A DNA stretch of 37,719 nt. It comes from Brevibacillus sp. Lineage in GTDB: Bacteria > Bacillota > Bacilli > Brevibacillales > Brevibacillaceae. Where the stretch lies: assembly GCA_029240815.1 (NCBI GenBank), contig JARDZO010000011.1, positions 1 through 37,719 on the forward strand, read 5' to 3'. Shown piece by piece: positions 31,589 to 37,329 of the stretch (its first letter is position 1; every line of letters begins with the position of its first letter). The position numbers were made by a program, and so were the translations under genes. The notes below the pieces were generated by a model. That model did not search any database and was not told the DNA's origin. It saw nothing but the letters and a program-made list of their open reading frames with translations.

Positions 31589-31651
31589 ATGCCTACAGCA
31601 GAGGCATAAAGCGCTCAGGGTCCAGCCCCTCGCCTTCTTTTTTTATGCCTC
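31589..31651. repeat. Three alternately pairing ATGCCT/AGGCAT segments
   Basis: ATGCCT (31589-31594), AGGCAT (31602-31607) and ATGCCT (31645-31650) lie in order. The middle copy can pair with either neighbour, and the outer pair extends to a perfect 10-bp match (GAGGCATAAA 31601-31610 with TTTATGCCTC 31642-31651). A T-rich run at 31637-31644 makes the plus-strand reading terminator-like. It sits at the 3' end of the SgrR-like gene and in the leader of the YdjM-like gene. Confidence 0.45.
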
Positions 31652-33464
31652 ATGGCTTAAACCAAATGTCTTTGTAATCGACAAATCCCAATGCGTTTAG
31701 AGAGACTCCTGCAAGTGCCGAATGATAGGCAGACTGCTGAAGGGAATGGAACAGAAATAACACAGCAGAGCTCTCTTTCAGCAATTCCTCTACCCGTATC
31801 AGGCCACTCTTCTGTTTTGCCGGCTTGCTTTCCAGCATCAGCTTGTCCAACTCCTGATCGATATCCTCCCGCAGCTTTTCATCCCACAGCAAGCGCATAA
31901 ACCCTCGGTCTGATTTGTACATCTCCAGCATTCCTAGCAGCAATTGATCATCAAATACTTCTCCGGCTACGATCATATCGGCCTTGAGCAGTGTTTCCGG
32001 CTTACCCAGCTCTTCGATGGGAACGATGACGAGCTCCACTGAAATCCCCATCTCGTGAAAATATTGCTGGAGCCAATTAGCATCCTGCTCGTTGCCCGCT
32101 CCTTTATACGTATAAAGCTTCAGCGTCTCTCCCTGGTAGCCACTCGCCGCCAGTCTTTCACTCGCTTCATGCACAGGGACGGGGGGCTGAAAATACTCAT
32201 CCTTTTGCCAATCCAGAATAAACCCGTTTGCTGGCACGTACCTTCTCCCTGCCACTTCCCGAATCATTTTCTCTCGATCCAGCAAGCGATCGATTGCTTC
32301 GCGAAACGCTTGGTTCTGTTGGGGACCATTCCGATTCAGATTAAATGCCAAGTATTTGCAGCCCTTCTCCATCTGTTGAAGCTCTTGCCATTCTTCTCTG
32401 TATCCTCTTTTGTCCAACATCGGCTGCAGAACATGCACCTCGCCTGCAATGGAAGGGATCGCTTCCTGCGTCCGCCTGCTTTCCGGCACAATCCATATTT
32501 CCACCCGATCCAGATGGGCCCTCCCTAAAAAATAAGAGGGGAACGCGTCCAGAATAAACATCTGTTCGCTGTTTTCTACCAGACAAAACGGGCCACTGCC
32601 TACTGGCTCACGGGCAAACTCGTTTCCCTTTTCCTGCACAACATCTCCTGGAACGATCGACAAGCGATCCGAGGCAAGAATAGACAGCAGCATGCGATTG
32701 GGGCGTGTCAGCCTGATCTTCACGATCGTGTCCCGAACCGCGATCAGCTCATCTACGTCCTGCAGCATCCAGTAGTATGGAGAGCCTGTCCGCGGGTCAG
32801 CGATTCGCTGGATCGTCCAGACTACATCCTCTGCAGTCAGTTCGCGTCCATGGTGGAACAACACGCCTTTTCGCAAATAAAACGTCCACTCGGTCCCTTC
32901 ATCATTTGTCTCCCAATGATGCGCGAGGTGAGGTAAAAAGATGCCCTTCTTTTCGTCATAGCGAAGGATGGTATCAAAAATCTGATTGACCATGTGGGAC
33001 TCTGTCACTCGTCCGACGAAAGCCGGGTCGAGTGCAGGAATGGTGCGGTAAAAGGACATACGCAGCGTATCTCGCGTCCTCGTTTCCCCTTCTTCGGTCC
33101 GGAAGCCGAATTGTCCGGAAAGCCAGTCAAAAAATCGCTCTCTGGCTTTACCTGATACCCGCCATTCGTTCAAAAGCATCATCGCTTTCTCCAAGTCACC
33201 CTGTTGTACATACGCCTGCGCGATCGGAAGAACAATTTGCTCCTTTGTGCGCAAGAAAACCATCCGGGAGGTGTACCCCCTGCCTCTGCCTGGAATCCAC
33301 TCCAGCCATTGCTGCTCGACAAGCTGCTTGACGACCATTTTCGCATTGCGAACGGTACAGCAAAAAACAGCGGAAAGCTCAGGAAGCGTAACCTCCTGGC
33401 CCACCCCCTCTGCCACGTGGACAAAATGTTGTCGGAGTCGCAAGTAATGATAGGCAATCTGCAT
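31650..33464 (-). CDS. SgrR-like regulator: HTH plus extracellular solute-binding (SBP_bac_5) domain
   Basis: This 604-residue protein has an N-terminal winged helix-turn-helix (about 1-95) with VTLPELSAVFCCTVRNAKMVVKQL, then a domain of about 490 residues related to the oligopeptide-binding proteins of ABC transporters. Its signatures are YDTIL-like IFDTILRYDEKKGI, LAHHWETNDEGTEWTFYLRKGVLFHHG, LTAEDVVWTIQRI and GSGPF. It has no signal peptide, so the binding domain acts as a cytoplasmic effector sensor. SgrR of E. coli responds to sugar-phosphate stress. The gene is divergent from an MFS transporter, its likely target. ATG 33464 has AAAGGGG upstream. Confidence 0.9.
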   Translation of the reverse strand: MQIAYHYLRLRQHFVHVAEGVGQEVTLPELSAVFCCTVRNAKMVVKQLVEQQWLEWIPGRGRGYTSRMVFLRTKEQIVLPIAQAYVQQGDLEKAMMLLNEWRVSGKARERFFDWLSGQFGFRTEEGETRTRDTLRMSFYRTIPALDPAFVGRVTESHMVNQIFDTILRYDEKKGIFLPHLAHHWETNDEGTEWTFYLRKGVLFHHGRELTAEDVVWTIQRIADPRTGSPYYWMLQDVDELIAVRDTIVKIRLTRPNRMLLSILASDRLSIVPGDVVQEKGNEFAREPVGSGPFCLVENSEQMFILDAFPSYFLGRAHLDRVEIWIVPESRRTQEAIPSIAGEVHVLQPMLDKRGYREEWQELQQMEKGCKYLAFNLNRNGPQQNQAFREAIDRLLDREKMIREVAGRRYVPANGFILDWQKDEYFQPPVPVHEASERLAASGYQGETLKLYTYKGAGNEQDANWLQQYFHEMGISVELVIVPIEELGKPETLLKADMIVAGEVFDDQLLLGMLEMYKSDRGFMRLLWDEKLREDIDQELDKLMLESKPAKQKSGLIRVEELLKESSAVLFLFHSLQQSAYHSALAGVSLNALGFVDYKDIWFKP

Positions 33465-33591: not shown

Positions 33592-34845
33592 ATGTCGTCA
33601 CCTGAAAGGCAGCAGGCTGCTGCGGCTCCAGAAGCTTCCGCATCCGCATCCACATCCATCTGGCGCAACCGGCCGTTTCTCATTCTGTTTTTGACCTCCG
33701 CATTCGTCACATGCGGCGCAAAGGTCTACGAGCTGGCCTTGCCTCTCATTTTGTACGATATGACGCATTCTGTGCTCACCATGACGACGATGAGAAGCAT
33801 CGAGTTCTTACCGAATCTACTGCTGGCCATGTTCATTGGCGTGTTCGTGGACCGTTTCTCCAAAAAACGCTGGTCCCAATGGATGGTCTTTGGACAAATG
33901 GTTCTCCTGTTTCTCCTGTATGCACTGATCGAGTCAGGGCGAGCCCAGATTCTTCACTTTTATGCGGCAGGCTTCCTGTTGATGGCCTTTAACTACGGAT
34001 ACGGCAATGCCAGGGTCAGCATCATCAAGCAGGTCGTACCCAAACCACTGCTTACTTCAGCAAATGCCCGATTTTCCTTTCTGTACACCTTGATCGACAT
34101 CATGGGACCAGCCATCTCCGGGTTTATTTTGCTGCTATCCAGTCTCCAAAATGGTTTGCTTATTACAGGTATTTCTTATCTCGTTGCGCTGATCGCCGTT
34201 TCGTTTTTAGAAAAAGAAAAAACACCAGAAACATCCGCACAACAAGACTCGTTCTGGCAGGACTTCCGTGCAGGATGGCGTGAACTGCTCTCCAATCGCC
34301 CGCTTTGGCTGATTACAATCCTGGTCATCTTCCTCAATGCCACATCTGGAGTCTATGACGCCATGATTATCTTTTTTGCCAAGGATCATCTCAAGCTGGA
34401 CCATTCACAATTGGGGCTGGTGCTCTCTGTGGCCGGGGCAGGAGGGTTGATCGGAAGTACTTTGGTATCGTGGCTTCGCAAACGATTTCCGACGGGAAAG
34501 ATCATGGGTACGACCATTCTGCTGCTGGGAGTTTCTTACTTGCTCATGGCTATGGCACAAAGCACCTGGATGCTCTGCCTATCGCTGTTTCTGTCGGGGA
34601 TGATCGGGACGATTGAAAATATCTGTATCTGGACGTTTCGGCAGGAATCCACTCCCGCTCACATGATTGGGCGAATCAGCGGAATCACCGGCTCCATTTT
34701 TAAGCTGGGGATGGTGTTCTCGATTTACGGCTCAGGCTGGGTGACCGTTTGGCAAGGACCTTGGGCTGCATCTCTGGCAGCTGCAATCGGCAATCTGCTG
34801 ATTTTTCTCGTGTATCGTCGTCTCTCGCTCTGGCGTCTCGCATAG
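33592..34845 (+). CDS. MFS transporter
   Basis: This 417-residue protein has about 12 transmembrane helices, starting after an Ala/Ser-rich N-terminus of 20 residues. A motif A-like segment, GVFVDRFSKKRW, lies between helices 2 and 3. It resembles MFS exporters of macrolide/DHA3 type. AAGGAGG lies 8 nt before ATG 33592, and a TACAAT -10 candidate lies at 33560-33565. It is divergent from the SgrR-like regulator, which probably controls it in response to its transported compound. The structured non-coding region begins about 55 bp after the stop codon. Confidence 0.9.
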   Translation: MSSPERQQAAAAPEASASASTSIWRNRPFLILFLTSAFVTCGAKVYELALPLILYDMTHSVLTMTTMRSIEFLPNLLLAMFIGVFVDRFSKKRWSQWMVFGQMVLLFLLYALIESGRAQILHFYAAGFLLMAFNYGYGNARVSIIKQVVPKPLLTSANARFSFLYTLIDIMGPAISGFILLLSSLQNGLLITGISYLVALIAVSFLEKEKTPETSAQQDSFWQDFRAGWRELLSNRPLWLITILVIFLNATSGVYDAMIIFFAKDHLKLDHSQLGLVLSVAGAGGLIGSTLVSWLRKRFPTGKIMGTTILLLGVSYLLMAMAQSTWMLCLSLFLSGMIGTIENICIWTFRQESTPAHMIGRISGITGSIFKLGMVFSIYGSGWVTVWQGPWAASLAAAIGNLLIFLVYRRLSLWRLA

Positions 34846-34900
34846 GTCGAGAAAGGTAAGAAAAATGCGAGAAATACACCCGCTTCCTTTTTTCCACTTG

Positions 34901-35560
34901 GTCAGACTGTAGTGGAGGAGAGGAAAAAGGGGAAAACGCTCCAGCTTCATAGGAACACCTACTGGGGGTCATCCCTGTCCGGCTCCATATAAAAAACGAA
35001 ACCGCGTCCAAAGTAGCCGTCTCAGGGAGCTTTTCAGAGGTGGACGCTTAAAAACGTGTTTCGTTTTTTCCATTACGCCTCGGCTGGTGTTCCTAAGATC
35101 TTCCGCTTATTTCCCCTTCCTCCTCAGCCAGCTTTGGTTATACTACGTGTCTTATTCTGGGGGCTTTCCTACGTCGAACGGACACATTTGACGACTTGAT
35201 TGATTCACATACGCCCTTCGAAGCTCAAGCGATGGACAGAATAAGTTTTTTCTACCTTGAAACCTTGTAATATCCGTTAACTAGAAACCTCAACAGCTCG
35301 AAGGAGAAGCAGGTTTCCAGGCGGAGCGACTCCGGAACCCATCTTAGCGGAACAACGAATTCACGGGATCCAGAAGCGGTACCTCTGTATTCCCTGCGGA
35401 GCAGATTCTACTTTACCGCTTCCCCGTGAATCGTTGTGGAGCGGACAGTTTATTCTTCGATGCAGGGTGTAAACGGGGCCCCGCCGAACGCGAGCGATAG
35501 CTTGTGTTCGGTGGGTAAAGACCGGAGCGTAGATCGGAAACCTGCTTCTCCCCACTACCA
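34901..35560 (+). ncRNA. Candidate large structured non-coding RNA (about 650 nt)
   Basis: This segment has no credible gene on either strand but is dense in nested perfect inverted repeats. Left domain: GTAGT 34909/35142; GAGGAG 34915/35120; GGGGAAA 34929/35110; TAGGAACACC 34950/35086 (10 bp); AAAAAACGAAA 34991/35059 (11 bp); GCGTCCA 35004/35041 (7 bp), all properly nested; then a hairpin AGCCA-GCTT-TGGTT (35126-35139). Middle: CTTATTCTG 35151/35237 (9 bp). Right domain: 16 bp at 35303/35536 enclosing arms at 35352-35437 and 35480-35515. Mismatches are G-T on the plus strand in at least five places, so the RNA is read from plus. No clear promoter was found; it could be the long 3' UTR of the MFS gene. 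Known large RNAs (OLE, ROOL, GOLLD) must be tested. Confidence 0.68.
35303..35551 (+). repeat. 16-bp perfect inverted repeat enclosing a 217-nt structured core
   Basis: GGAGAAGCAGGTTTCC (35303-35318) is the exact complement of 35536-35551. Inside, CTCCGG (35330-35335) can pair with CCGGAG (35522-35527). A long arm follows (35352-35367 with 35423-35437, one bulged base, stacked on 35373-35381 with 35414-35422), and then a 16-bp hairpin (35480-35495 with 35500-35515, GATA loop). CCCTGC in the first arm's loop (35392-35397) matches GCAGGG (35462-35467). Confidence 0.8.
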
Positions 35561-35575
35561 CAGCAAAAAAACTCC

Positions 35576-35615
35576 GTAAAAAGCCACAAGCAGCGTGCCG
35601 TTCTGCCTGTGGCTT
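35576..35615 (-). terminator. Terminator of the chemoreceptor gene
   Basis: AAGCCACA (35581-35588) pairs with TGTGGCTT (35608-35615), with CAG/CTG inside. The minus-strand reading ends in TTTTTACGGAGTTTTTTT. It follows the stop of the chemoreceptor at 35641. It could also end plus-strand transcription from the structured RNA. Confidence 0.85.
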
Positions 35616-35640
35616 CTCTTCCTTCTATTCTGCTCAGAGC

Positions 35641-37329
35641 TTACGCCTTGAATCTTCCCATCAGCTTCTCCAGCTCTTCAGCCAGATGCGCCAACGAAGC
35701 AGCAGACGTGTGGATTTCTTCCATTGATGCCAGCTGTTCTTCGGTTGCAGCAGAGACATCCAACGTACGCGATACACCCTGCTGGGTCACACTGGCAATT
35801 ACGCGCATCGATTCTGCTACCTTCTCTGTACTGTCGGTGAGCGTGCGGGAAGCAGCCGAGACGTCTTGTACCTCTGCGGCGACACGAACAACCGCATCAC
35901 GGATATGAGCAAAGGCATCTCCTGCCTGCGCGACACCATCCATGCACAATGCTGTTTGTTGTGAGCTCTTTTCTACTGAAATGATAGCTTCCTGTGTCTC
36001 GTGCTGGATGACCTCGATGAGTTGCGTGATTTTCCCTGCCGAGGTCGAAGCCTGTTCTGCCAGCTTTCTCACCTCATCAGCCACGACAGCAAATCCTCTG
36101 CCATGCTCGCCAGCACGGGCTGCTTCAATCGCGGCATTCAAAGCAAGCAGGTTGGTTTGCGCCGCAATGCCGGTTATCACGTCCACGATCTGACCGATTT
36201 GCTCGGAGCGTTCGCCCAGACCACTTACCATGCGGGACAGGCTTTCCATGGCTTCACCCATGCCATCCATCTGAGTGACGACTTGCTGGATCGCCTGATT
36301 CCCATCCGTTGCCAGGTCCGACGTACGAATAGCCGTCGTGGATACATTTTCCGCACGTGCCGCGATCTGCCCGATACCCGTCGCCATTCCCTCTACCTCG
36401 ATGTGACTTGCTTCCACGTTCTGCGCCTGGTGATCGCTTCCCGCCGCCATCTCCTGCACGGTCTCGGCAATCTGTTCGGTTGCCTTGCTCGTTTGCTCTG
36501 AGCTGGCTGTCAGCTGTTCTGCCGACGCCGCCACCTGTTCGGCGTGGCTGCGCACTTGCAGAATCAGCTCCCGCAAATTGCGCAGCATTTGGTTGAACGA
36601 CGACGCCAGCATTCCGATCTCATCCTTGGATTTGACCGTCAGCTCTTGCGTCAGATCACCTTCGCCCTCCGCTATGGCTTGCAACTGCGAATTGACGCGA
36701 TGAAGCGGAACGACGATGGCACGAACGAGAAACGCGCCAATCAGCAAAGCAAACAAGATGCCCGCTACGCTAAAGGAGGTTTGGATAATTTCCGACGCCA
36801 CTCGATTTTGCTCCATCCTCGCCTGATCCACTTCTTTTTTCTGCTGCACCTTTACGGCCATTTCATCGATCAGAACGTCCAGATGTTTTCGCGCCTCTCG
36901 CTCCTCGCCAAAGTGGAGCCGGACCGCCTCGTCGCGATTGCCATTCCCTAAGGCTTCTACCACTTTTTGACTGGCGCTCAGGTAGGTATCAAATAACTCT
37001 TTTAACTGTCCCAAAGCTTGACCGTGTTGCGCAACGGCCTGCTTGTTACTATTTATTTTCTCTGCCAGCATGCCAATTCGTTCGATCTTTTCCTGCATTT
37101 GCTTCGGATACGTGTCTTCCCCGGTCAAGAGATAGCCGCGCTCGTCGTTATTCCGGCCGGTCATGATAAACTGCATTTCACGCAGGGTAGTGAGGAGCTC
37201 TCCCTCTTCGATCATCTCGGTGTAGGAGGCTGTCAGCATTTTAGTTTGAACGTACATATAAGTCCCGGAACTCAGCATGATCGCTAGGATCACGCCAAAC
37301 GCAATGATGAATTTCGTTCTGATTTTCAT
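35641..37329 (-). CDS. Methyl-accepting chemotaxis protein with CHASE3-type sensor
   Basis: This 562-residue receptor has an N-terminal transmembrane helix (about 7-28), an extracytoplasmic helical sensor (about 30-180) with [16 protein letters not shown] typical of CHASE3, a second helix (about 183-203), a HAMP domain (205-257) and a long cytoplasmic signalling domain. The tip hairpin contains [29 protein letters not shown] (split over residues 390-418) and [12 protein letters not shown], which bind CheA and CheW. It forms part of the chemosensory array. ATG 37329 follows AAGGAGG. It is monocistronic. The ligand is unknown. Confidence 0.95.

Follow-up and report, generated by a model that had tools for sequence, protein, structure and literature searches.

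The intergenic stretch at 34901-35560 of the window (the whole 37,719-nt piece of Brevibacillus DNA that was analyzed) is composed of two adjacent copies of one repeat superfamily and a linker, and is not one new RNA. Each unit is an imperfect palindrome of about 230 nt that is kept paired by compensating changes. Copies number from a few to more than 100 per genome in Brevibacillus and related bacteria, and the two families represented in the stretch, A and B, are without preference for one RNA strand. Our favored reading, which we hold to be probable, is that A and B, in this order and converging, are giant extragenic hairpins that act as DNA and resemble BIMEs and REPINs. Palindromes between bacterial genes typically have units of some tens of bases. 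The present superfamily is about ten times larger, is order-wide and occurs in six sampled genomes outside the order; some genomes contain more than 100 matches, and covariation among hundreds of natural variants defines its structure.

Composition of the locus

Element A (34903..35137, plus strand) is an imperfect palindrome of about 235 nt, matched by model R1 with 243.1 bits (E = 4e-60) and, at 34908-35137, by the superfamily model R2 with 216.2 bits. A conserved asymmetric internal loop and a terminal loop were apparent in an oriented alignment of 55 copies. Element B (35291..35562, minus strand) is a second, related hairpin repeat of about 272 nt, identified by R2 (100.6 bits, E = 6e-28) and by the alignment of the B family. 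Because B is on the minus strand by superfamily orientation, the window holds A(+) and B(-) with their 3′ ends facing each other. Inside B, about 47 nt (roughly 35473..35519, alignment columns 52-98) form an additional hairpin that, among 57 aligned copies, only the window copy has. In the linker (35138..35290), six T come after a 9-bp helix (35151-35159/35237-35245), an arrangement that resembles a terminator on the plus strand, and the left flank (34857..34902) forms a terminator-like hairpin when read on the minus strand (34883-34867). The left flank, and in part the linker, are common to a copy at an unrelated locus, L107 (see below). Upstream of the pair lies a gene for an MFS transporter (33592..34845, plus strand, 417 aa, Pfam MFS_1) and downstream a convergent gene for a methyl-accepting chemotaxis protein (MCP; 35641..37329, minus strand, 562 aa, Pfam MCPsignal and HAMP). 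The MFS gene is adjoined by a gene for an SgrR-like regulator fused to a family 5 solute-binding domain (31650-33464, minus strand, PF12793 and PF00496).

A first-pass annotation had described the stretch as gene-free and rich in nested helices, and had proposed a plus-strand RNA of 600-700 nt under structural selection. The helices proved real: besides the 9-bp linker helix, those with arms at 34991-35001/35059-35069 (11 bp), 34950-34959/35086-35095 (10 bp), 35004-35010/35041-35047 and 34929-34935/35110-35116 (7 bp each) are all perfect Watson-Crick complements, and all five sets of coordinates were exact. Four G-T pairs adduced for the plus strand are likewise present, but none is a conserved family pair, since three (35483/35512, 35490/35505, and 35492/35503) fall within the copy-specific 47-nt insertion in B and the fourth (35127/35138) lies at the outer edge of A. 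We also agree that the stretch is gene-free; ORFs of at least 40 aa inside it reached at most 66 aa and none was convincing, while its left edge is overlapped by minus-strand ORFs of 103 and 72 aa. The minimum free energy of 34846-35600 was −265.8 kcal/mol on the plus strand (z = −5.42) and −264.8 kcal/mol on the minus strand (z = −4.33), values reached by none of 20 dinucleotide shuffles in either case.

The proposal of a single RNA did not hold, as a linker separates two distinct repeats of about 235 and 272 nt in the stretch, and repeats of the A kind and of the B kind are each also found alone or in arrays at other places. Nor is a plus-strand RNA supported by the orientation of B or by a promoter search, which detected no sigma-70-like promoter in 34700-35700. 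Rfam scans at gathering score of the window and of the loci of 20 relatives matched no family here (HEARO, RNase P, and tmRNA included), and ARAGORN found no tmRNA. OLE, ROOL, and GOLLD, considered in the first-pass annotation, and all other named families of this kind were absent even from a permissive scan of 34700-35660 (E up to 10), which returned three weak microRNA or leader matches and nothing else. The sole gathering-score match in the whole window was a SAM riboswitch (RF00162) at 2317-2424 on the plus strand (87.2 bits), further copies of which provided the RNA control described below.

Spread, structure, and covariation of the superfamily

Homologs of the stretch are present in many genomes and not in one strain only. 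Oriented profiles were used for the searches, since A is so close to a palindrome that an HMM built without orientation combined the two strands. An oriented profile derived from a divergent copy united A, B, and two further families, labeled A2 and A3 here, under a common orientation. At E ≤ 1e-6 and with 57 candidates scored in each genome, the superfamily model R2 found matches in 36 of the 39 genomes from the order, with counts from 2 upwards. A class sample, for which seven candidates were scored per genome with stricter filters than in the order search, gave matches in 29 of 299 genomes, six of them outside the 39-genome search. When 150 candidates were scored for each genome, R2 matches numbered 117 in G011, 104 in G088, 103 in G024, 56 in G022, 52 in G128, 37 in G016, and 22 each in G015 and G007. 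G029, G030, and G031, from the order of G013, yielded no R2 match among 57 candidates scored each, which makes them useful for seeking a protein partner by presence or absence.

Matches to the stretch at other places in six Brevibacillus genomes numbered 34, 54, 20, 3, 11, and 45. These six Brevibacillus records were reached through the neighboring MFS gene; at the four loci where both neighbors match (L001, L003, L005, and L006), the aligned MFS and MCP parts lie about 70-165 bp apart, with no R2 element between them. Phage and plasmid collections queried with the window stretch and the A consensus gave no match, and no paper on the hairpin family was found in the open-licence literature, the only literature searchable.

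Units measure about 218-272 nt. Most of 17 divergent copies retain the long outer stem, a ACTGTCCGCT-like motif opposite a CCGCTGAGTAGG-like strand, and an AAAG loop, the least alike being those of G036 and G076. Conservation across families extends to positions of the asymmetric core that lie outside the stems. Covariation of the helices was strong. Among the 55 oriented A copies, two-sided changes occurred in 30 of 47 consensus pairs, and double-changed cells amounted to 207 against a shuffled mean of 54.7 (0/500 shuffles equal); the signal collapsed when pairing partners were slid by 1-3 columns. In larger sets, for which the structure was called without G-U, at least three double-changed copies supported 31 of 56 usable pairs in A (205 copies), 38 of 55 in B (128 copies), and 19 of 71 in A2 (29 copies). 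Ten locus pairs matched by their flanks allowed 19 element comparisons at near-orthologous sites, with one of the loci entering twice. Constraint was visible here: 9 compensated and 106 pair-weakening changes were seen in 1606 pairs, with 29 changes to A-C and 18 to G-U, and unpaired positions had changed in 141 of 1293 cases.

Covariation alone is no proof of RNA; a comparison of G-U with A-C mismatches separates RNA from DNA. Within an RNA helix, G-U is tolerated on the strand of the RNA, whereas A-C is not. With the structure called without G-U, G-U and A-C mismatches numbered 220 and 259 in A, and 93 and 125 in B. Riboswitch copies from the same genus group, subjected to the same procedure (42 copies including the window's own), gave 22 and 2, a difference from A (Fisher p = 7e-6) and from B (p = 4e-6) for which the p-values are optimistic, because the counts pool related copies. 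In A and B, G-U mismatches are thus about as common as A-C mismatches, unlike in the riboswitch control, which speaks against structural selection on a plus-strand RNA. A2 leaned to G-U (42 versus 23), opposite to A and B. The contrast persisted without the pair filter, with G-U:A-C ratios of 38:10 for SAM, 238:305 for A, 106:158 for B, and 43:28 for A2. Two further counts were discarded. A half-against-half palindrome count (G-U and A-C of 71 and 67 in A, 55 and 63 in B, and 6 and 21 in A2) was too crude a measure for unequal arms and gave way to the counts above. An RNA-like excess on alignment A1 (G-U 120, A-C 50) drew 77 of its 120 cells from two columns (39 and 38 cells) in which the commonest pair is U-G itself.

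Direction, convergent pairs, and turnover

In one set of Brevibacillus genomes, the direction of the repeats followed the replication fork. In G013, all 29 A copies in the first half of the chromosome were on the minus strand and all 11 in the second half on the plus strand; the same held for A2 (9/9 and 12/12, respectively). Weak A3-class matches were distributed as 6 plus and 4 minus in the first half, and 9 minus and 2 plus in the second. Across seven Brevibacillus genomes, each with a chromosome-length contig (G008, G011, G012, G013, G015, G023, and G024), A was anti-fork in 83 of 86 cases and A2 in 21 of 21 (together 104/107), and B with A3 was co-fork in 83 of 86. This set comprises 193 deduplicated elements, mostly from G013, which are not independent because they represent the best-scoring loci, orthologs included, and not a complete census. 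The leading strand was assigned from the contig half, with which local GC skew agreed for 73 of 86 A, 21 of 21 A2, and 77 of 86 B with A3 elements. Exceptions were one G013 site near the contig end (two partial matches), one site in G015, and three A3-class elements in G013. GC skew in the window is below zero in all 5-kb bins (−0.085 for the whole), which makes A anti-fork and B co-fork at the present locus too.

Where both flanking genes (ORFs of at least 110 aa) were lagging, A or A2 was anti-fork in 9 of 10 cases and B co-fork in 8 of 8, several of these loci containing A and B together or being orthologous. Since direction is kept when both neighbors are lagging, transcription does not set it. 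A direction tied to replication, not transcription, in the Brevibacillus counted renders a DNA-level role directly testable. In G088, which lies outside the order, no bias by chromosome half was seen among the 32 copies listed of 104. The G013 chromosome is without any A or A2 copy from 2.68 to 3.96 Mb, i.e. across 1.28 Mb around mid-chromosome, and of 51 A/A2 clusters a single one lies within the central 20% of the map (p = 3e-4, uncorrected for gene density).

Close neighbors (<1 kb) in the match lists of G022 (56 of 56 rows used), G016 (35 of 37), G007 (18 of 22), and G088 (32 of 104) were arranged plus then minus in 33 cases, minus then plus in 2, and on the same strand in none. The first three genomes belong to the same genus group; the copies listed for G088 included no close pair. 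In the seven-genome set, 70 of 96 close neighbors were convergent, 19 were in the order expected at the joins of array units, and 7 were on the same strand. Arrays in G013 are built of alternating B and A with a unit of about 519 bp, and flank-matched arrays (flanks about 95% identical) differed by whole units: two in G013 versus one in a relative (L118/L186 and L124/L201), and three versus one (L145/L218).

Ten spacers of paired hairpins from G022, G016, and G007, read by eye, showed no ORF in common, and a conserved cargo was rejected. Similarity among the G007 spacers was partial (71-77%), and among those of G022 it was confined to short ends. Different transposase genes were found in the long spacers of convergent pairs at L353 (1260-2767), L354 (1949-3175), and L356 (2369-3616), while the L355 spacer revealed no clear gene on reading. 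In G022, a Y1 gene (PF01797) followed by another ORF lies within one of the convergent pairs. We take the other spacer ORFs to be TnpB-like (the one after the Y1 gene), ISL3-like, and IS1182-like. Long spacers look like landing places for insertion sequences.

Losses of single hairpins were also detected. The copy closest to the window's A (L107 in G015, 90% over about 300 bp) shares the left flank and a portion of the linker with the window, and only the final bases of its B remain (about 1900-2080). In a B. reuszeri comparison, the A element of G002 is gone in G006 except for about 25 bp of one arm (G006:C15:64721-64747, L363). Both scars retain part of one arm and thus record hairpin deletion. 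No fresh insertion with clean boundaries and no clean empty site was seen; the two informative comparisons were losses.

Interpretation and relation to known repeats

If A and B indeed work as DNA, exposure of one strand, most probably at the fork, would let the hairpin form, and its conserved asymmetric internal loop may be recognized by a protein or by the replication machinery. Amplification and placement could be coupled to fork passage, which would fix the orientation; the fork-fixed direction suggests that hairpin formation, or the making of copies, takes place on the strand that the fork exposes. Turnover was seen in both forms, arrays changing by whole units between species and single hairpins being lost by deletions that leave an arm remnant.

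BIMEs are described as inverted pairs of REP sequences that occur in alternating arrays, e.g. E. coli BIME-2 (PMC2817692). The hairpin repeats are similarly extragenic, palindromic, of high copy number, and arranged in inverted pairs and alternating arrays, and insertion sequences lie between paired copies, as reported for REPs (PMC1525189). They differ in their unit of about 230 nt, compared with 20-40 bp given for REPs (PMC3733652), in lacking an accompanying Y1/RAYT gene, and in being nearly fixed in direction along the replichores of seven genomes. REP palindromes are reported in the same source to carry GTAG or CGTC as a tag at one of their ends (PMC3733652); the majority of A copies read GTAG at their 5′ base, which is not so in the superfamily consensus. 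Most likely, the repeats are a giant counterpart of BIMEs and REPINs in design, not by proven descent, with the architecture enlarged about tenfold. Because unit size and the missing Y1/RAYT gene disagree with REP features, we did not file them as members of that group.

A further reading, which we regard as possible though doubtful, is that the repeats constitute a replication-directed DNA signal: large hairpins formed at the fork, set in convergent pairs, fixed in direction along the replichores, thinned around the terminus, and carrying an internal loop read by a protein. Such a signal might be read, for example, for restarting synthesis, loading a factor, or organizing the chromosome.

Strict Watson-Crick pairing would also be demanded of hairpins used in transcripts of either strand, as RNase III sites in 3′UTRs, mRNA stabilizers, or intergenic roadblocks, and divergent gene pairs are indeed avoided (convergent:divergent 21:4 for A and 17:4 for B). 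A fork polarity independent of genes would not be expected from such a role, and we consider it unlikely.

Transposition of single strands into the lagging-strand template is described for IS608 and ISDra2 (PMC6006769), and the repeats share hairpin ends and a link with the replication fork with IS200/IS605 elements and their non-autonomous derivatives. Movement of the repeats, as non-autonomous elements in single-stranded form, by a Y1 (HUH) transposase of this type would accommodate the hairpins, the fork-linked direction, and the Y1 gene enclosed by the G022 pair. Scored as a whole class, with the RAYT subgroup not separated, Y1 does not track the repeat across the 39 genomes, being absent in 17 of 36 repeat-bearing genomes and present in 2 of 3 repeat-free ones, and an IS200/IS605 partner as mobilizer was rejected. 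Other convergent pairs hold different transposases, A and B have opposite fork directions, and the whole unit is one long palindrome far larger than the known ends, which together make mobilization of this kind quite unlikely.

Little probability attaches also to the repeats being functionless old palindromes, kept matched by arm-to-arm template switching at the fork as a mutational process. Arm-to-arm correction would give covariation of the Watson-Crick type only, and 13 formerly mismatched pairs had become matched between near-orthologs while 17 stayed mismatched. This process predicts neither the convergent-pair rule nor the fork polarity, and the conservation of the asymmetric core outside the stems argues against it. 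Finally, a functional non-coding RNA made from one strand in many copies, the view of the first-pass annotation, is very improbable despite the strong covariation, the conserved loops, and the G-U excess of A2, given that G-U is not favored in A and B as it is in the riboswitch control, that the window copy has no sigma-70-like promoter nearby, and that direction tracks the fork and not genes. The repeats share with OLE, ROOL, and GOLLD a large, structured intergenic sequence and are distinguished from them by high copy number, the lack of an Rfam match, and the lack of a one-strand RNA signature in A and B.

The BoxC/TM repeats of E. coli, set apart here by description and not by sequence, have a fold of another kind, an intrastrand triplex. 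They too are multi-copy intergenic structures at the DNA level, and in strain K-12 they are reported to be clustered in the origin-near halves of the replichores and linked to instability (PMC4666352).
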